DNA of 64,000 nucleotides. Source: Parvularcula mediterranea (GTDB taxonomy: Bacteria > Pseudomonadota > Alphaproteobacteria > Caulobacterales > Parvularculaceae). Below the pieces are notes generated by a model. That model saw nothing but the letters and a program-made list of their open reading frames with translations. It searched no databases and was not told the DNA's origin. Made by a program: the position numbers and the translations under genes. The DNA lies in assembly GCF_013085255.1 (NCBI RefSeq), contig NZ_JABFCX010000003.1:815288-879287 (forward strand), in the 5' to 3' direction. Below are positions 13,615-24,401 of this stretch, one piece after another. Numbering within the stretch: the stretch's first letter is position 1; every line of letters begins with the position of its first letter.

Positions 13615-14151
13615 CTACTGACTGGCCTGCAGGAACTTCGAGTTCCGCAGGAGAGCCGCGGAGATCAGCGAGATCACGAGGCCCACAGGGAAAAGCTCGA
13701 GAAACGTCACGGGGATCCGGAAGAGCGGATTGGCGTATTGCTCGGCCATGGTCGCCATTTTGGCCTTGAGCGCCTCGATCTCCGAAGCTGTCGCGCCGCC
13801 GTCTGCGGCCTTCTCCACCACCGATGCCGTGTAGCTGTCGATGAAGCTCGACCCAGTCGTCGCGATGTAAACTTCCCAGACCAGCACATAGGCCACCCCT
13901 GCAAAGGCTGAGATGAGGAGCCCGAGGCTGAGGCCTGTCCAGAAGGTGATCACCCCGCCCTGAGCAACGTCGCGATACCGCTTGATGGCGAAGAAGATCA
14001 CCGACAACGCGAGCAGCATGACGAGATAGCCGAGCCATTCGAGGCCCGCCATGTCGGCGTTTTCTCCCCCCGCGAGGCTCAGCGAGAGCGTATTGACGAT
14101 GATGATGATGGCGCCTGCGATGGCGCCGTAGATGGCTGCGGTTTTGATCAT
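13615..14151 (-). CDS. DUF4199-domain membrane protein
   Basis: A 178-aa protein with four hydrophobic helices (about residues 5-25, 38-57, 70-93, 148-170) and a soluble loop between the third and fourth, matching the DUF4199 family of unknown function. It is co-oriented with and downstream of a membrane-anchored LuxR-type regulator, a pairing seen in other genomes. Two palindromes of the type TCACCC-N4-GGGTGA lie 64-79 and 101-116 bp upstream of its ATG, suggesting direct control by a LuxR-type regulator. Confidence 0.85.
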   Translation of the reverse strand: MIKTAAIYGAIAGAIIIIVNTLSLSLAGGENADMAGLEWLGYLVMLLALSVIFFAIKRYRDVAQGGVITFWTGLSLGLLISAFAGVAYVLVWEVYIATTGSSFIDSYTASVVEKAADGGATASEIEALKAKMATMAEQYANPLFRIPVTFLELFPVGLVISLISAALLRNSKFLQASQ

Positions 14152-14214: not shown

Positions 14215-14230
14215 TCGCCCACATGGGTGA
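14215..14230 (-). promoter_or_regulatory. Putative LuxR-type operator upstream of the DUF4199 gene
   Basis: The plus strand reads TCGCCCACATGGGTGA, one mismatch from a perfect TCACCC-N4-GGGTGA palindrome. It is nearly the same as the perfect copy at 22445-22460. It lies 64 bp upstream of the DUF4199 start codon. Confidence 0.55.
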
Positions 14231-14251: not shown

Positions 14252-14267
14252 TCACCCGTTCAGGGGA
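14252..14267 (-). promoter_or_regulatory. Second, degenerate copy of the palindrome
   Basis: TCACCCGTTCAGGGGA has a perfect left half-site and four of six matches on the right. Its centre is 37 bp from that of the copy at 14215 and it overlaps the stop codon of the LuxR-type gene. Confidence 0.4.
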
Positions 14268-14709
14268 TGAGCGAGAGCTCCTTCGCCTTCATCACCGCCT
14301 GCGCCCTGCGGCTGACGTCCAGCTTCTCGAAAAGGTGGGAGAGATGCGTTTTCACCGTATTGGGTGAGATCTCGAGAGCCCGCGCGATTTCCTTGTTCGC
14401 CATTCCCTGCCCCAGCAGCTCGAGCACGGCGCATTCGCGCGAGGAGAGACCAAGGACCTCAATGGCAGCTTCATTGCGAGAGAACCCTTCACGGTCCTTC
14501 GGAACCGTCAGCTGGCGACCCATCCAGATGCCAAGCAGCACGAACAGCACCGCGACAATGATGACGTAGGCCTCGGCCGGGAACATCCGGGCGGCGCGGC
14601 GATACTCGAGCCAGCTGAGCGCGAACGCAGCCAGAGCGAGGAAGCCCGCATAGGCTGCCGCGCGGCCCAGCCCGAACTTCTCCAACTGCCGCCAAAGCTG
14701 CGCGAACAC
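14260..14709 (-). CDS. Membrane-anchored LuxR-type transcriptional regulator
   Basis: Two N-terminal transmembrane helices (about residues 17-35 and 47-65) precede a C-terminal LuxR/GerE helix-turn-helix with the typical LSSRECAVLELLGQGMANKEIA and SPNTVKTHLSHLFEKLDV-type segments. There is no receiver domain, so it probably senses a membrane or envelope cue directly. GTG 14709 (149 aa) puts the first helix near the N-terminus as in relatives; the upstream extension to 14844 looks non-coding. It is upstream of DUF4199 on the same strand and divergent from the thioesterase gene. Confidence 0.85.
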   Translation of the reverse strand: MFAQLWRQLEKFGLGRAAAYAGFLALAAFALSWLEYRRAARMFPAEAYVIIVAVLFVLLGIWMGRQLTVPKDREGFSRNEAAIEVLGLSSRECAVLELLGQGMANKEIARALEISPNTVKTHLSHLFEKLDVSRRAQAVMKAKELSLIP

Positions 14710-14847
14710 GGGATACGCCTGCCTTCTCCTGCCCTGATGGAACCCTGCTGGAGCCCGTGGCCCAGCGTCAACAGCGGGGCTGCATCCGCCTCGCCTCCCC
14801 GAATGGCTTCCGCTACGAGCGCTGCAAATAGAATGAGGAAACACCCC

Positions 14848-18751: not shown

Positions 18752-19009
18752 GAGTATGCCTCAAATGCAGCAGGGCTGCGGGTTCTAGGCTTCCGGAGCT
18801 GTCGCGGAGGGCACGCGGAAGCAAGGTTGGACAAGGGCCAGCAGGACACGAATGACGGACCGTCAGGTTCGGATGCTAAAGCGCTTGTCCTCCTCTAAAG
18901 CCACGTCAAACGCGCAAGGAACTGGCCTCGCGACCCGCGCTCCCTATGGAAAAGATGGCCTGCGCGCAAGGTCTGTTGGTCAGGGGGTTCCGCCCCCATC
19001 TTGGGCCCT

Positions 19010-19813
19010 ATGCTGCTGAACCGCCTCCTGCTGCCCGCCGCGCTCTTCCTCACCGCATGCGCGAGCGTGCCCGCTGAGCCCCCTGCCCATGACCTCCATG
19101 CCGAGGTGCGGGGTGATGGGGAGCCCCTGATCGTCTTCATCAACGGCAATGGCGCCACGCTGTCGGTCTGGGACGGCATCGAGGCGGCCCTGCGCGAGGA
19201 TGGCGTGACGGCGCTCCTGACCGATCGGGATGGCCTCGGCGGAACAGCGCTTGGCCCGAGGCCCTATCGCATCGAGGATGAGATCGCCTCCCTCCGAGCG
19301 ACGATCGCGAAGCTGCCAGATGGGCCGCAGGAGATGATCCTCGTCGCCCATTCTTATGGCGGATTGATCGCGGCGGGCCTTGCCGATGAGGAGAATGTGG
19401 CCGGCGTCGTGCTCGTCGATGCCCTCGTGCCGGGTGCCATGACCCAAGAGCTGGTCGAGGAGACGCTGGCGACCTACCGCCCGCAATATGAAGCCGTGCG
19501 CAAGCAGGCCCCTGACGTGGCGGCAGCCATCATCCCTATCGTCGAGGCCTACCCGGAAACTGCCGATGCGGTCTCCGGCATGGCCTGGCCTAATGGGCTG
19601 ACGCTCATCATTATCGAAGCTGAGAATCCGGCAGGAGGCCCTGCGACCCAGGCCGCAACAAGGTCGGCCTACCGAAGGCTAATCGCGGAGAACCCCGGTT
19701 CCCGCACGCTGGTGATCGCTGAACGGAGCGGACATCAGGTCATGCGCGACAGGCCGGATCTTGTCGTCGAAGCCATCCGTTCCCTGATCAAAGAGATGCG
19801 CGCTGAAGGCTGA
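19010..19813 (+). CDS. Alpha/beta hydrolase lipoprotein
   Basis: A secreted alpha/beta hydrolase of 267 aa. The lipobox is LTAC, the nucleophile elbow is AHSYGG with the serine in place, and the catalytic histidine is in ERSGHQVM near the C-terminus. The oxyanion region FINGNGATLSVWD is typical. The substrate is unknown. ATG 19010 lacks a clear SD; TTG 19001 is an alternative. It is the only plus-strand gene between rpsA and cmk and converges on the LuxR-pseudohydrolase gene, whose hydrolase domain, unlike this one, has lost its catalytic residues. Confidence 0.87.
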   Translation: MLLNRLLLPAALFLTACASVPAEPPAHDLHAEVRGDGEPLIVFINGNGATLSVWDGIEAALREDGVTALLTDRDGLGGTALGPRPYRIEDEIASLRATIAKLPDGPQEMILVAHSYGGLIAAGLADEENVAGVVLVDALVPGAMTQELVEETLATYRPQYEAVRKQAPDVAAAIIPIVEAYPETADAVSGMAWPNGLTLIIIEAENPAGGPATQAATRSAYRRLIAENPGSRTLVIAERSGHQVMRDRPDLVVEAIRSLIKEMRAEG

Positions 19814-19818
19814 GCAGC

Positions 19819-21492
19819 TTAGCCGCTGAAAATGTCGGCAATCGTCTGCGCCACGAAATCTGGTCGTTCGTAGAGGGCCAGCTGGGCAAGGCCATCCATC
19901 CTGACCGCGCGGCACGAGGGGTTGGCCGAACAGAATGCTTCGACAGGCTCCATCGGCATGAAGTCATGCTCACTGCCGTGAATGAAGGTCCACGGGGGCG
20001 ATCCCTCCAACAGGTCTCCCTCCCAGTCCGAGGTCCACCGCCCGATATCCCAGGCGATCTGGTCTGAGTTTTCGAAGCAGTAGGCGATGAGATCCCTGGT
20101 GATCTGCCAGTAGCGGGGTTCTTCTGTCAGCTTCCGGTCGCGGGGGCTGTCGTTGAAGAAGTACTCGACCGTCCGCTTCTCACCCACGAGCCCGCTCTCG
20201 AAGAGACCTTTGGCCACGCGGTAGCCGAGCCTGAGGGCTGCAGGGGAAAGGTGAGCCGCCTTGAAGCTCCGCCGCATGGGCCGCGAAGCGCTACCGAAGG
20301 CTTCGGGAGCTTGCGGGGCGCCGGTGGAAATGAGGACCGTACCCTGAAAATTCGTCCGGTCGCGGATCTCCTTGGCCGCCTCTGCTGCGAGGATCCCCCC
20401 TTCCCTGTGACCGGCGATGACCAAGGGCTGGTCACGCCTCAAGGGAATAGCTTCGAGCAGGTACCGCGCGAGGCTGGCGCCGTTTTGCGCGCTGTCATCA
20501 TGCCGGGAGGAACCGCCATGCCCCGGGCGATGGGGAGCAATGATGCGGAGCCCGCGATCAGCCACGGCTTCGCGCCATCGTTCATCCTCCCACGGAAGAC
20601 TTGATGTCGTGAGGTACAGGACGAGCTTTCCGTCAGGAGCGCCATAGGTCGAAACCGCAAGCTTCCGGCCGTCGCGCAGTGTGTGCTCCTTGGTGGAGAA
20701 TGCGCCGCTGGCCCTCCCCGTGCTGATCGCAGGCGCATCGGCTGACGAACCAACAAGGAAACGCAGGCGTGCGACAAGGAAGAGAAGACCAGACTGCTTG
20801 TGCTCACCGGTTTTGGTCTGAACCGATTTGAGCTGGGACCTGATGGTCTCGGGACTCTTTCCCGCTTCCGATGCGATTTCCGCGACCGCTTTACCTTCGC
20901 TCAGCAAGCGGACGACATTTATCTCCGCCGGGGTCAGGGAGAACCGCGTTTTCAGAGCTTCGCTCAGGCTTGGCGACCAGGCGGTGGCTTCGAACTGAAC
21001 CAGCACGAGCGGCCCGGGTGATCTTCGTGTGGGGATCGTGCTGACACTGACGATCAAGCTGCCGCCCTCGGGCGCGGCAAGAACATGAAGCCGCTGGTCC
21101 GGCGAAGGTGGCCACTGGTCCTCGAAGCTCCCGGCAAGCTCGTCGCCGAGCCCATGCTCCTGCTGCGCCTCACGCCCGGCTTCATTGCCGGCAAGCACCC
21201 TGCCATCCGCGCCCAGCAGCAGCGCCGGCGCAGGGATGAGCTTGAGGATGGCCTGGGGCTCAAACGCAGGGTCGAGCCGTGGGTCGTGCGCGAGGTCCTC
21301 AGCCCGCTTGAAGTGCTGACCAAGATCCTCCGTGGTCAGCCTTTCATCGGGAAGGCCGAGCGCGTCTTCCCACGCATCCATGAGCGCTTCAAAACTCTCA
21401 GGATCGAGCGCTGCATCATAGGCAACCTGGATCAACCTGCTGATCAGCTGGTCGCTTTTCTGGCGGTCGTCGGCTTGAGGCGAGGTTTTCAC
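19819..21492 (-). CDS. LuxR-type regulator fused to a catalytically dead alpha/beta hydrolase domain
   Basis: A 557-aa protein in three parts: a PAS-like N-terminal region (about 75-170, with LLLGADGRVLAGNEA), a LuxR/GerE helix-turn-helix (about 183-225) and a C-terminal alpha/beta hydrolase fold (about 265-557). The nucleophile elbow reads GHREGG, so the catalytic serine is Arg363. The expected catalytic histidine region reads MDGLAQLALYERPD, with no histidine. The acid position (Asp510) remains. The fold is therefore likely a ligand-binding sensor, comparable in principle to the plant receptor GID1. It follows the VPxPA-CTERM gene by 40 bp on the same strand. Confidence 0.9.
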   Translation of the reverse strand: MKTSPQADDRQKSDQLISRLIQVAYDAALDPESFEALMDAWEDALGLPDERLTTEDLGQHFKRAEDLAHDPRLDPAFEPQAILKLIPAPALLLGADGRVLAGNEAGREAQQEHGLGDELAGSFEDQWPPSPDQRLHVLAAPEGGSLIVSVSTIPTRRSPGPLVLVQFEATAWSPSLSEALKTRFSLTPAEINVVRLLSEGKAVAEIASEAGKSPETIRSQLKSVQTKTGEHKQSGLLFLVARLRFLVGSSADAPAISTGRASGAFSTKEHTLRDGRKLAVSTYGAPDGKLVLYLTTSSLPWEDERWREAVADRGLRIIAPHRPGHGGSSRHDDSAQNGASLARYLLEAIPLRRDQPLVIAGHREGGILAAEAAKEIRDRTNFQGTVLISTGAPQAPEAFGSASRPMRRSFKAAHLSPAALRLGYRVAKGLFESGLVGEKRTVEYFFNDSPRDRKLTEEPRYWQITRDLIAYCFENSDQIAWDIGRWTSDWEGDLLEGSPPWTFIHGSEHDFMPMEPVEAFCSANPSCRAVRMDGLAQLALYERPDFVAQTIADIFSG

Positions 21493-21532
21493 CCCGCCTA
21501 GCCATCACATCCCGCGCCGGAGCGCAACGGGA

Positions 21533-22378
21533 CTAAGCTCCGCGGCGACGGAACCCGAGGACACCAAGCCCGCTCAGGAGTAGGAGAGCAGCACCCGGGA
21601 CCGGGACTTCGGTCGACGACAGGAACGCAGGATCCGAGGCCGCCAGCGACAGGCCATCGGTGGTCAGGAAGCTGATATAGCCGGTGTTGCCGAAATTGCT
21701 GGAGGCGAAACCCGTCCCCTGAGGGTTCACCGCGCTGACAATCGCGAAGCTCAGCATAAGGGTGATCCGCTGGCCATCATTGGCGCCGATCGACACCGAG
21801 AGCAGCTCGTCCACATCGAGGATTGGCTCCGGCGGAATGGAGCTGCCATTCACCGACGTATCAAGCGATCCGTTCACGTACTGATTGACAGCCGAGAACG
21901 TGTCCGAGACCGTCTCGAGGCGAGGATTGAAACGCGACGCCTGGATCGTCGAGCGGACGTTGGTGGAGCCTGCATCACTCAAGGCTGTCAGGAGGCCATC
22001 GAAGGCAAACTGGAAGGTCGCCGTCCCCGACCCGCTGGCGATGAAGGTCTCGGTGATGGTCAGCGAGACGGACGAGCGCGCATCATTCCGGCGATTGGGA
22101 TTGGTGTCGAGGTCTGCGCTGGTCTCAGCTTTCAGGACCCCGGTCACGGGATCGAACGTCAGGTCCACCGCAGCGGTAGCCGCGCCGTCCGTGGCTTCGA
22201 GACTTTCGCTGATCGGTCCATTGATCGTACCGCTCAGGCCGGTGATCCCCCCACCAACGCTGGCGTCCGCATTCTCCCGGTCATTGGCCGCGGCCCGCAC
22301 GCTCCCCGTGATGGTCGCCGCTTCAGCTGCGCCGAGCATCACGGCGATGGCTGCCGTTGCTTTCAATAGTCGCTTCAT
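21533..22378 (-). CDS. VPxPA-CTERM sorting-domain exported protein
   Basis: A 281-aa secreted protein of unknown function. It has a signal peptide ending in GAAEA, a beta-rich mature region, and a textbook C-terminal sorting signal: VPVPGAALLLLSGLGVLG followed by FRRRGA, as recognised by exosortase-type systems. It is upstream of and co-oriented with the LuxR-pseudohydrolase gene (40-bp gap), so the two are probably co-transcribed. A perfect TCACCC-N4-GGGTGA palindrome lies 67-82 bp upstream of the ATG. Confidence 0.87.
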   Translation of the reverse strand: MKRLLKATAAIAVMLGAAEAATITGSVRAAANDRENADASVGGGITGLSGTINGPISESLEATDGAATAAVDLTFDPVTGVLKAETSADLDTNPNRRNDARSSVSLTITETFIASGSGTATFQFAFDGLLTALSDAGSTNVRSTIQASRFNPRLETVSDTFSAVNQYVNGSLDTSVNGSSIPPEPILDVDELLSVSIGANDGQRITLMLSFAIVSAVNPQGTGFASSNFGNTGYISFLTTDGLSLAASDPAFLSSTEVPVPGAALLLLSGLGVLGFRRRGA

Positions 22379-22444
22379 CTCATCCCCCGTCTTGAGTCAC
22401 GAATTTGGCATCTTCGTTTTCGGGGGCTTACGGCGGATTGCCCA

Positions 22445-22460
22445 TCACCCGTTTGGGTGA
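22445..22460 (-). promoter_or_regulatory. Perfect TCACCC-N4-GGGTGA palindrome upstream of the VPxPA-CTERM/LuxR unit
   Basis: The sequence TCACCCGTTTGGGTGA is a perfect inverted repeat with 6-bp arms, centred about 75 bp before the start codon at 22378, the usual distance for an activator or repressor. Near-identical sites precede the DUF4199 gene, which lies beside another LuxR-type regulator. It could also fold as a weak hairpin behind nothing in particular, as the next gene upstream (22481) ends before it. Confidence 0.55.
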
Positions 22461-22480
22461 AATCGGAGCTCTGGACCCGA

Positions 22481-22942
22481 TTATTCGCCGGGCGTGGGTG
22501 CCATATTGTAGATCACCTTGGAAATGGTCAGGCCGCCGGCATCGGTGCGCTCTAGGAGGATCAGGTTCTTCGTCTCGAAGCGGAAGACATCGTCCGACCC
22601 CTCAGGCCCGGCCGAACCAACAACCCTGCCCTGCACGACGACAAGGTCATCGAAGCTTTCAAGCTCGACGATCTCGTGGGTCGTCCTGAGGTCAACACCC
22701 ACCCCGACGGTCGAGAGATGCGCGCGAAGGGCTTCGGTGCCCCGGTGCTCACGCTCCCCGGGGACAAGGATGACGGCGTCGTCTGCATAGTTGGCGAGCT
22801 GCGCTTCGACGCTCAGTGTACGGTCGTCGAGATCGGAGAGAATTGCAAGGGCAGCCTCGCGGTCTGCTTCAGGGACGACTGGAGCACTGCACGCTGAAAG
22901 CGCACCAGCCACAAGCGCCAAGGTCCAAACGATTCTCTTCAT
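22481..22942 (-). CDS. SnoaL/NTF2-like lipoprotein
   Basis: A 153-aa protein with a lipoprotein signal (lipobox LSAC) and an NTF2-like/DUF4440-type fold: an N-terminal helix, NYADDAVILVPG, RGTEALRAHL and the paired beta strands of the cone. Such domains can be enzymes or just ligand binders; no catalytic residue can be assigned. ATG 22942 is chosen since the signal peptide starts there. It lies between cmk and the VPxPA-CTERM gene on the same strand. Confidence 0.82.
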   Translation of the reverse strand: MKRIVWTLALVAGALSACSAPVVPEADREAALAILSDLDDRTLSVEAQLANYADDAVILVPGEREHRGTEALRAHLSTVGVGVDLRTTHEIVELESFDDLVVVQGRVVGSAGPEGSDDVFRFETKNLILLERTDAGGLTISKVIYNMAPTPGE

Positions 22943-23015
22943 ATCCGCCCCCATTCGTTGACGGAGGGTCATACCAGAAGGAGCAGCCGCTGGCAGCCCG
23001 AGCCCGTCGCAGATC

Positions 23016-23663
23016 TCAGGCTTCCATCGCTTTTCGGATATTGTCGATAATCCGGGAGGCCCGGCCCAGCACCTCGTCAGGGGTCAGTTTCGAGGTGTCG
23101 ATGATCTCCGCCTCGGCCGCTGGTTTGAGAGGGGCCTCTTCGCGGTTCTGGTCGCGCTCGTCACGGCGCTTCAGCTCTGCGAGCGTGTTTTCGAAGGTCA
23201 CGCTCTGGTCCTGCACGCGCAGCTCTTCATAGCGGCGCTTGGCGCGCTCCTCGGCACTGGCGGTGATGAAGAACTTCACCGTGGCATCGGGGAAGATGAC
23301 CGTCCCGATGTCGCGCCCGTCGAGCACAGCACCGGGAGGGGTGAGGCCAAAGCTCCGCTGGAAATCGAAGAGCGCCTTGCGCACCCCTTCATGGACAGCG
23401 ACGAGGCTCGCGCCGCGTCCAACCGTCGGGGTCCTGAGATCAGCCGTGCCGAGAGCTTCGGGGTCGAAAGCTCGCGCGACTTCCGCCGCAGCCTCGGCAT
23501 CCCTTGGATCCAGGTCATCACGCAGCATCAGCCACGCCACACCCCGATAGAGCGTACCGGTGTCGAGGTGCTTCAGCCCATAGAGGTTTGCGAGCCGCCG
23601 GGAGAGCGTCCCCTTCCCACTGGCCGCGGGTCCGTCGATCGCGATGATAAGAGGCTTGCCCAT
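23016..23663 (-). CDS. cmk: Cytidylate kinase
   Basis: Cmk phosphorylates CMP and dCMP. The 215-aa protein has the P-loop GPAASGKGT at residues 11-19, the LDTGTLYRGVAW substrate segment, the LDGRDIGTVIFP motif and a C-terminal DTSKLTPDEV stretch, all as in the family. It is unusually distant from rpsA, with which it normally forms an operon. Confidence 0.96.
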   Translation of the reverse strand: MGKPLIIAIDGPAASGKGTLSRRLANLYGLKHLDTGTLYRGVAWLMLRDDLDPRDAEAAAEVARAFDPEALGTADLRTPTVGRGASLVAVHEGVRKALFDFQRSFGLTPPGAVLDGRDIGTVIFPDATVKFFITASAEERAKRRYEELRVQDQSVTFENTLAELKRRDERDQNREEAPLKPAAEAEIIDTSKLTPDEVLGRASRIIDNIRKAMEA

Positions 23664-23828
23664 CGGCCGCGCTTATCCGGGGTTCGCGGGCTTGAGGCAA
23701 GATCAAACACCGGCAGTCAGCGTCTCGGGGGCCTTGCAACCTCCGAGCGAACCGCACCGTGGAAATACAGGTTGTCGCAGCGTGTGGTTAACCAATATCA
23801 CAATAGCGTTAGAATTCGGGGAACCGCT

Positions 23829-24401
23829 ATGAAGAATGCCGTAATCTCAGCCGTCGTGGGCCTAGCCGCCCTCGGCACCGCCAATGCCGCCATCGTCGAC
23901 CAAGGCGCAACCACCGTCGGAGGCGGCGGGGGTATCGAGCTGGTCTCAGGCGGTAACGCTATCTTGCAGGCGAATGGCCTCTACAGTTCTCAGACCACGA
24001 CGCCTGCGTCCGACTGGGTCTGGACCGACAATGGCGACCAGACCACGACGTGGACGTTCACCTTCGACCTTACTGGCTTCGATAAATCCACAGCCGTGCT
24101 TTCGGGCCTTTGGGGTGTCGACAATACGGGCACGATCGACCTGAACGGTACGCAGATCGCAAACCTACCGGTGGTCACAACGGCCAACTTCACGAGCCTG
24201 ATCAGCTACAGCACATCCGATAGCTCGCTGTTCAACATGGGCATGAATGTTCTAACCTTCGTCCTCTCCGACGCAGGTGGCCCCGAAGCCTTCAGGGCAA
24301 CAGCGACCGTCGAAGCCGACACGTCGGCCATTCCGGTTCCGGCGGCACTGCCGCTGTTCCTCGCTGGACTTGCTGTCGTCGCCCGCAAGCGCCGCAAGTA
24401 G
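23829..24401 (+). CDS. VPxPA-CTERM sorting-domain exported protein
   Basis: A 190-aa secreted protein of unknown function. It has a signal peptide ending TANA, a Thr/Asp-rich beta-sandwich-like mature region with aromatic residues (SDWVWTDNGDQTTTW), and the C-terminal sorting signal VPAALPLFLAGLAVVA with a basic RKRRK tail. ATG 23829 has GGGGAA 5 nt upstream. No TCACCC palindrome is seen in front of it, unlike the gene at 22378. It has its own terminator. Confidence 0.86.
   Translation: MKNAVISAVVGLAALGTANAAIVDQGATTVGGGGGIELVSGGNAILQANGLYSSQTTTPASDWVWTDNGDQTTTWTFTFDLTGFDKSTAVLSGLWGVDNTGTIDLNGTQIANLPVVTTANFTSLISYSTSDSSLFNMGMNVLTFVLSDAGGPEAFRATATVEADTSAIPVPAALPLFLAGLAVVARKRRK

Follow-up and report, generated by a model that had tools for sequence, protein, structure and literature searches.

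Quorum-sensing receptors of the LuxR/TraR type are one-component sensors with an N-terminal autoinducer-binding domain and a C-terminal helix-turn-helix (HTH). The plant hormone receptor GID1 acts through protein partners and is not known to have a DNA-binding domain. In bacteria, the nearest documented sensing use of a hydrolase that we found is RsbQ with RsbP-PAS: in Bacillus subtilis and others, a separate hydrolase with a required, conserved triad serves as a signalling part together with PAS and varied outputs, reported as a phosphatase, a histidine kinase or a diguanylate cyclase (PMC3183031, whose main text does not contain the term LuxR). Here we describe a 557-amino-acid (aa) LuxR/NarL-type regulator of Parvularcula mediterranea that carries a hydrolase domain with all three catalytic positions replaced. 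It is encoded in a 64-kb stretch of DNA (C2:815288-879287 of the 3.2-Mb genome), which we call the window and to whose positions the coordinates of this locus refer.

As a presumed one-component sensor with a LuxR-type HTH, the regulator resembles LuxR/TraR receptors, but its HTH occupies the middle of the protein and is followed by the hydrolase domain at the C-terminus. Its likeness to RsbQ/RsbP-PAS lies in the use of an alpha/beta hydrolase in bacterial signalling. The differences are the fusion of the hydrolase to a LuxR-type HTH that serves as output, the loss of the triad in most of the fused proteins, and a PAS domain that is not established here. The regulator thus has neither the conserved triad nor the separate hydrolase gene beside a PAS protein that mark the RsbQ module. 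With GID1 it shares a hydrolase-derived domain, a broken triad and a proposed binding of ligand, a comparison that we intend as analogy only. Among the records listed in our literature searches, which covered mainly openly accessible journals, none described HTH-hydrolase pseudoenzyme regulators, and this family, in which a hydrolase pseudoenzyme would be the sensor of a LuxR-type regulator, is apparently undescribed. We propose that this regulator would control a neighbouring gene for an exported protein through a DNA dyad upstream of both. The features of the locus are as follows.

19819-21492, minus strand: 557-aa LuxR/NarL-type regulator, GTG start, with a predicted alpha/beta-hydrolase pseudoenzyme domain at its C-terminus (open reading frame (ORF), Pfam and family census)
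20806-20940, minus strand: GerE/LuxR HTH, residues 185-229 (Pfam GerE)
19846-20604, minus strand: alpha/beta-hydrolase domain, residues 297-549 (Pfam Abhydrolase_6, sequence matches in the PDB, family profile against 9wlv)
20404-20406, minus strand: Arg363, in the nucleophile (Ser) column (family alignment and solved hydrolases)
19966-19968, minus strand: His509, in the catalytic-acid column (family alignment and solved hydrolases)
19882-19884, minus strand: Gln537, in the catalytic-His column (family alignment and solved hydrolases)
21533-22378, minus strand: 281-aa exported protein ending in a VPxPA/PEP-CTERM tail (ORF, tail motif, Pfam PF07589)
22445-22460, no strand assigned: candidate operator TCACCC-GTTT-GGGTGA, a 16-bp dyad of NarL type (repeat search, family matrix)
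19001-19813, plus strand: convergent alpha/beta hydrolase that carries the Ser motif HSYGG and has His as its base-column residue; its N-terminus looks lipobox-like by eye

Pfam matched GerE to residues 185-229 with 23.5 bits, exactly at the curated cut-off of 23.5, and Abhydrolase_6 to residues 297-549 with 38.7 bits against a cut-off of 26.3. At E 0.01 or better, GerE was matched in 25 of 27 family members and Abhydrolase_1 in all 27, and the family profile aligned with 9wlv across the hydrolase domain at E 1.3e-37. We infer that the C-terminal domain of the regulator has the alpha/beta-hydrolase fold. An earlier note on this DNA, made from its letters alone, had placed a LuxR HTH before the hydrolase domain, as the GerE match at its cut-off bears out; of the PAS-like region in that note there remains a trace (PAS_4 at E 0.11), and neither the regulator nor the 27 members gave a significant PAS match (E 0.01 or better), which is compatible with a distant PAS fold. 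No receiver or autoinducer-binding family appeared in the Pfam scan of the regulator.

Alignments to solved hydrolases and to 9wlv showed that all three triad columns are changed in the regulator. Against 7dq9, a predicted hydrolase, GHREGG stood opposite GHSMGG, which places Arg363 opposite the Ser. The stretch from about residue 502 to the end aligned without gaps, with Gln537 opposite the His of SGH, His509 opposite the Asp and Asp510 opposite an Asn (counted by eye). In the 9wlv alignment the family had 'a' opposite the nucleophile Ser and 'q' opposite the His. The combination expected of a catalytic hydrolase, a Ser, Cys or Asp nucleophile with an acid and a His, is therefore missing. With Arg363, His509 and Gln537 in place of Ser-Asp-His, catalysis by the usual mechanism would not be expected, and we consider it very likely to be absent. 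The Arg in GHREGG and the lack of a His base had both been read correctly in the earlier note, which left the residue at the base column unnamed; its kept acid, Asp510, lies one residue beyond the acid column, which is occupied by His509. Our guess is that Arg363 and His509 could suit an acidic ligand.

The regulator belongs to a widespread proteobacterial family. Among 119 related genomes, 24 including its own had a match, the others at 23-36% identity and E at most 1e-10, and no second copy was found elsewhere in its own genome. Family matches (E at most 1e-40) occurred in 41 of 398 genomes drawn phylum-wide and in 49 of 249 drawn order-wide; a class-wide search gave 140 of 385 genomes at 1e-15, mostly with one-domain matches. 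Carriers include Henriciella, Marinicaulis, Parvularcula, Robiginitomaculum, Hirschia, Antarcticimicrobium and Cohaesibacter, as well as metagenome-assembled genomes (MAGs) titled Alphaproteobacteria, Gammaproteobacteria and Pseudomonadales. In the named genomes, a search with the single regulator protein confirmed no close relative, and one with a closer alignment (A2) found 23 loci, five of them (L079-L083) through the HTH stretch alone. Several loci hold paired regulators close together (L062, 6072-9773; L072, 7815-11446; L063, 3-2755; and L076 and L077), and the two in L072 overlap by 4 bp.

To count triads we collected 125 fused HTH-hydrolase proteins, 111 of them non-redundant. The census dropped 16 of 144 rows, namely near-copies above 85% identity and the short row L022; among the dropped rows was L150 (Ser-Asp-Phe), a contig-edge piece and near-copy of L094. 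The 111 fused rows include five short or truncated ones of less than 480 aa, and alignment A1 was made without L022, L023 and L024, which are cut or have no hydrolase domain. A full set was present as Ser-acid-His in 12 fused proteins, Cys-acid-His in two and Asp-acid-His in one, and 96 of the 111 had no complete triad. In the nucleophile column the latter had Ser without His (11), Cys without His (one), Asp without His (nine), Asp with His but no acid (two), or neither Ser, Cys nor Asp (73; 61 of them also without His and 12 with it). Gln was the commonest residue in the His column (32/111) and was never paired with Ser (0/23).

Hydrolases without a detected HTH had Ser-Asp-His in 14 of 17 cases, these controls being the best-scoring hits to the same profiles and not random hydrolases. 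The exceptions were P0003 (Ser-Thr-His, its acid unplaced by the alignment), L144 (Gly-Asp-His in a 356-aa frame, from a genome that also carries the fused L087), which may be genuinely exceptional or a damaged copy, and L043 (Arg-Asp-Thr), a relative of 642 aa without a significant match to the HTH profile. These counts support triad loss as a rule of the fused family and not a local accident. A conserved nucleophile Arg was ruled out: among the 111 fused proteins the regulator alone has it, so the homologues sharing a Ser-to-Arg change that the earlier note had proposed to look for come down to L043 (1489-3414), in which a relaxed HTH search also gave nothing significant.

Two other patterns stood out in the census. 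L037 (1492-3129) is a fused regulator with Asp-Asp-His, an arrangement like that of dehalogenases or epoxide hydrolases. In f189, a family of the same phylum and another class, eight members (L101, L088, L094, L100, L090, L093, L108 and L110) keep Ser and Asp and have Ala, Ser, Asn or Phe in place of the His, which is the pattern of GID1.

We built a quick tree from 124 hydrolase domains after stripping the three catalytic columns, with P0003, L144, L063 (a short copy) and L073 left out. The clade of the regulator comprised 81 rows (80 fused proteins and L043) with an SH-aLRT support of 99. Ser was found in two of these rows (L097 and L118), both without His, and Ser with His in none. Outside the clade there is a mixture of intact and broken members, which come from Pseudomonadales MAGs, from an alphaproteobacterial MAG and from the f189 family. 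The fewest changes on the tree were seven for Ser and 13 for His; the outgroup did not fall on one side of a branch, and gain is indistinguishable from loss on such a tree. The nearest kin of the regulator there were L128 (Cys-Asn-Gln) and L002 (Ala-Asn-Gln), a three-member set with support 100. Correlated loss of Ser and His was discarded as a formal test, with four independent pairs on starred branches and a sign test median p of 1.

Conservation was ranked over 281 columns in the 99 fused rows that lack a Ser-His pair. The five best columns were Gly284, Arg322, Arg276, Pro417 and the His of the HG loop (Thr295 in the regulator), and the Gly at the second position beyond the nucleophile ranked 12th. 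Of the catalytic columns, the acid ranked 34th, the His 184th and the nucleophile 234th. This pattern would fit a kept pocket with a varying floor, or relaxed constraint at one position.

The relaxed-constraint option leads to one rival account, in which the hydrolase domain is a structural relic that serves as a dimer or protein contact and takes no small molecule, the N-terminal region alone being the sensor. The low rank of the nucleophile column, as if unconstrained, and the wide range of residues found in it speak for this. But Arg322, the HG-loop His, Pro417 and the Gly after the nucleophile stay conserved, and the recurrent Gln in the His column, with its avoidance of Ser, suggests a pocket that was kept and remodelled; we regard a relic as unlikely. 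Another account has the domain still working as an enzyme by a changed mechanism, with a Cys or Asp nucleophile or other residues, so that the regulator would sense its own turnover. Some family members may indeed be active, given the 12 with Ser-Asp-His, the two with Cys-Asp-His and the one with Asp-Asp-His, and RsbQ, a signalling hydrolase, needs its triad (PMC3183031). In the regulator itself, however, the three columns are occupied by Arg, His and Gln, and no row of its clade combines Ser with His, though L037 has Asp-Asp-His. Enzymatic turnover by this regulator therefore appears very improbable to us.

We next consider what the regulator might control. Its gene starts 40 bp downstream of a gene on the same strand (21533-22378), in the arrangement that the earlier note had given for its VPxPA-CTERM gene. 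The tail of the encoded protein, VPVPGAALLLLSGLGVLGFRRRGA, is by eye a plain CTERM motif. PF07589 scored 18.8 bits in the protein scan (cut-off 20.7) and 21.4 bits in the genome-frame scan, and NCBIfam PEP_CTERM scored 13.9 bits, under its cut-off of 16. The P. mediterranea genome has one Exosortase_EpsH match (E 3.0e-68). A simple scan found no terminator-like site on the minus strand within 18900-23100. From this layout, the CTERM gene is the probable operon partner and target of the regulator.

Surface-protein genes recur beside other family members. We compared the immediate neighbours of 117 unique regulators with the other ORFs of the same loci, using simple in-house rules for signal peptides and CTERM tails and a longest-ORF rule for gene calls, by which some starts are surely wrong. 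CTERM tails were present in 7 of 207 immediate neighbours and in 0 of 438 other ORFs (Fisher p 3.3e-4), in a test prompted by the present locus, which is itself one of the seven; the others are L064, L078, L187, L075, L212 and L233. Twenty neighbours picked for their exported appearance were then inspected with Pfam. YadA head repeats were found beside L224, L236 and L238, autotransporters on both sides of L256, CS1-pilus usher domains beside L061 and L073, FG-GAP with cadherin-like or RTX repeats beside L068 and L184, RHS repeats beside L273, HYR, PKD and laminin-G domains beside L275, Omp85 beside L206 and a lipase-like protein beside L279. The PEP-CTERM family was over its cut-off in the neighbours of L233 and L075 and just under it in those of L212 and L078. 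Pfam matched nothing in the 860-aa neighbour of L260, the 194-aa neighbour of L061 or the CTERM-like protein of L187.

In a random, de-duplicated Pfam scan of 124 of 139 neighbours of 150-1500 aa and 145 of 334 background ORFs (longer genes excluded), the commonest neighbour family was PEP-CTERM (5/124), with the CS1-pilus usher domains TcfC and CooC_C at three each, YadA_head at two and hydrolase families at four. None of those neighbour families was among the best 25 of 257 background families in the 145 ORFs, where families of at most two members could escape. CTERM hits in eight genomes of the regulator's family numbered 8 to 28 each, weak ones included. The link to surface proteins suggested in the earlier note is thus borne out across the family by CTERM proteins, pilus ushers, YadA adhesins and autotransporters, but the particular CTERM gene is kept in 1 of 119 genomes, its own.

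The dyad at 22445-22460 consists of two perfect 6-bp arms around a 4-bp spacer. It is placed 66 bp ahead of the start codon of the CTERM gene and 20 bp away from the next gene. The earlier note had pointed to this palindrome for its perfection. The arms are indeed perfect, but a 1,011-bp stretch contains 19 pairs of inverted repeats whose arms measure at least 6 nt, and a palindrome alone was ruled out as evidence since such repeats are common locally. It is the comparison of dyads across the family that makes this one meaningful. Near-matches to it cluster beside other regulators at a spacer of 4 (seven sites, against 0-2 at other spacers), and permuted arms gave 0-1 sites, except TACCCC with seven. 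The wider motif T..CCC-N4-GGG..A occurred 28 times in 79,943 bp of flanks of the 117 regulators and 22 times in the remaining 696,336 bp, an 11-fold difference. For the 105 regulators with distinct flanks, 27 sites lay beside 26 of them; 200 dinucleotide shuffles of these flanks gave a mean of 1.18 sites and a maximum of five, other spacers gave 0-4 sites, and other outer letters or reversed arms 1-3.

A matrix made from those 27 sites, with the present one excluded, ranked 22445-22460 as the best site of the 64-kb window, with 20.2 of at most 25.1 bits. Sites of at least 9 bits were found for 35 of 117 regulators (training sites included) and for 4 of 117 when the flanks were reversed. In five of the seven CTERM cases the dyad or a variant lies between or before the genes, two of them weak: besides the present locus, L187 (14.3 bits), L075 (two copies, 18.1 bits), L064 (7.2 bits) and L078 (8.4 bits, overlapping the predicted start of the regulator). 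L064 and one copy in L075 are so placed only if their CTERM genes start later than the longest-ORF call, and no dyad was seen between or before the genes in L212 and L233. The palindrome upstream of the CTERM gene, then, matches a dyad that is enriched beside the family and has the 16-bp NarL 7-2-7 layout. An engineered NarL 7-2-7 site reads TACCCCTAAAGGGGTA (PMC4549865). Our regulator shares with NarL a GerE-type HTH, and its candidate operator is a 16-bp dyad laid out like the NarL site, as a GerE-type dimer would lead one to expect. NarL, however, senses by a phosphorylated receiver domain, and here a hydrolase pseudoenzyme follows the HTH.

Dyads of this kind also occur at other places in the P. 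mediterranea genome. Exact TCACCCN4GGGTGA is present at two places, and TCACCC-N4-GGGTGA with at most one mismatch at 32, five of them in the window, versus one for the backwards pattern. The second-best dyad of the window, TCGCCCACATGGGTGA at 14215-14230 (19.7 bits), lies just upstream of a 178-aa ORF (13615-14151, minus strand) and after another LuxR-type ORF (14260-14844, minus strand), so that the layout resembles that of the present locus with a different LuxR gene. An own-genome regulon of many sites was considered and rejected on the two exact places and on a count of 10 degenerate sites versus six for the control.

Both the surface-gene neighbours and the dyad could in principle be coincidental, arising from shared mobile or fast-evolving regions and from common GC-rich dyads, and a number of observations weigh against control of the CTERM gene by the regulator. 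The CTERM protein had no match in the 118 other related genomes, so that this gene looks lineage-specific. Most regulators have no surface-protein neighbour, CTERM proteins included, and signal peptides by our crude rule were in mild excess beside them (81/209 versus 116/420, p 0.003). The two closest relatives, L180 and L199, lack a CTERM neighbour and have instead pairs of exported genes (232 and 514 aa; 231 and 507 aa), judged similar by eye. They also lack a convincing dyad, with best scores of 5.2 and 8.2 bits, so that conservation of the palindrome in them is not supported. Within 350 bp, 79 of the 105 regulators have no dyad, and some of the 26 that have one are related loci (for example L218/L219 and L268/L270). 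The motif was widened after we had seen the palindrome of this locus, and the DNA around it is rich in inverted repeats. The core by itself does not stand out (CCC-N4-GGG 55 sites, N5 50, N6 41), so the signal consists of the core with its outer T and A. In intergenic DNA only, a stricter control, 25 sites fell in 28,961 bp beside the regulators and 10 in 46,043 bp elsewhere in the same loci (p 8e-5), or about 4-fold; this control and the all-sequence background both count the site of the present locus as 'other', since the CTERM gene intervenes. Within the own genome, the degenerate dyad shows no clear enrichment, and since the 14215 dyad adjoins another LuxR gene, such dyads are not specific to the fused family. 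Within the clade, finally, L037 may have an active hydrolase domain. Nevertheless, the control within the same loci is clear for CTERM tails, with none in 438 ORFs, the dyad passes the shuffle, spacer and other-intergenic controls, and it recurs in most of the CTERM cases, if weakly in L064 and L078. We find coincidence improbable.

Control of the CTERM gene through the dyad, with a hydrolase domain that senses, is the explanation that we favour as a whole, by a modest measure. The regulator would be a one-component transcription regulator whose NarL/LuxR-type HTH binds, as a dimer, the 16-bp dyad at 22445-22460 before a two-gene unit, made up of the exported, CTERM-tailed surface protein and then the regulator itself. 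In the hydrolase domain the scaffold would be kept and, with Arg363, His509 and Gln537 at the triad positions, usual catalysis would be gone; most likely a small molecule or a partner protein occupies the domain, which relays this state to the HTH. The outcome would be a tuning of the level of the surface protein and of the regulator's own level, by positive or negative control. Taken separately, the parts differ in how far we trust them. That the CTERM gene is a target of the regulator we think probable, and that the dyad serves as its operator only a little less so; for a small molecule as the thing sensed we would put the chances slightly short of even.

The surroundings of this unit include a second hydrolase. 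The convergent gene at 19001-19813 is separated from the regulator gene by 5 bp, and among the 118 other genomes its sole match at E 1e-20 was in G004, with 47% identity. Its product could make or remove the ligand of the regulator. An active-hydrolase neighbour was rejected as a family rule: hydrolase families were hit in only 4 of 124 neighbours, and the one strong match to a hydrolase-partner profile was the partner of this regulator, which had itself gone into that profile. About 1 to 2 kb from the locus, a plus-strand ORF at 23391-24401 also carries a VPxPA-like CTERM tail, IPVPAALPLFLAGLAVVARKRRK.

At the level of the family, we tentatively suggest that a large group of regulators has turned a hydrolase into a receptor, with several losses of the catalytic residues, a kept scaffold, a variable nucleophile position that perhaps sets specificity, and local action on surface-protein genes through NarL-type dyads. 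If this is true, these proteins would be a bacterial counterpart to the hydrolase-derived hormone receptors of plants, and because intact and broken relatives occur in one family, the passage from enzyme to receptor could be followed there. It would also mean that the surface and adhesion proteins of Alphaproteobacteria and other Pseudomonadota answer to undiscovered cues, for which the dyad at 22445-22460 would give a concrete candidate DNA site.

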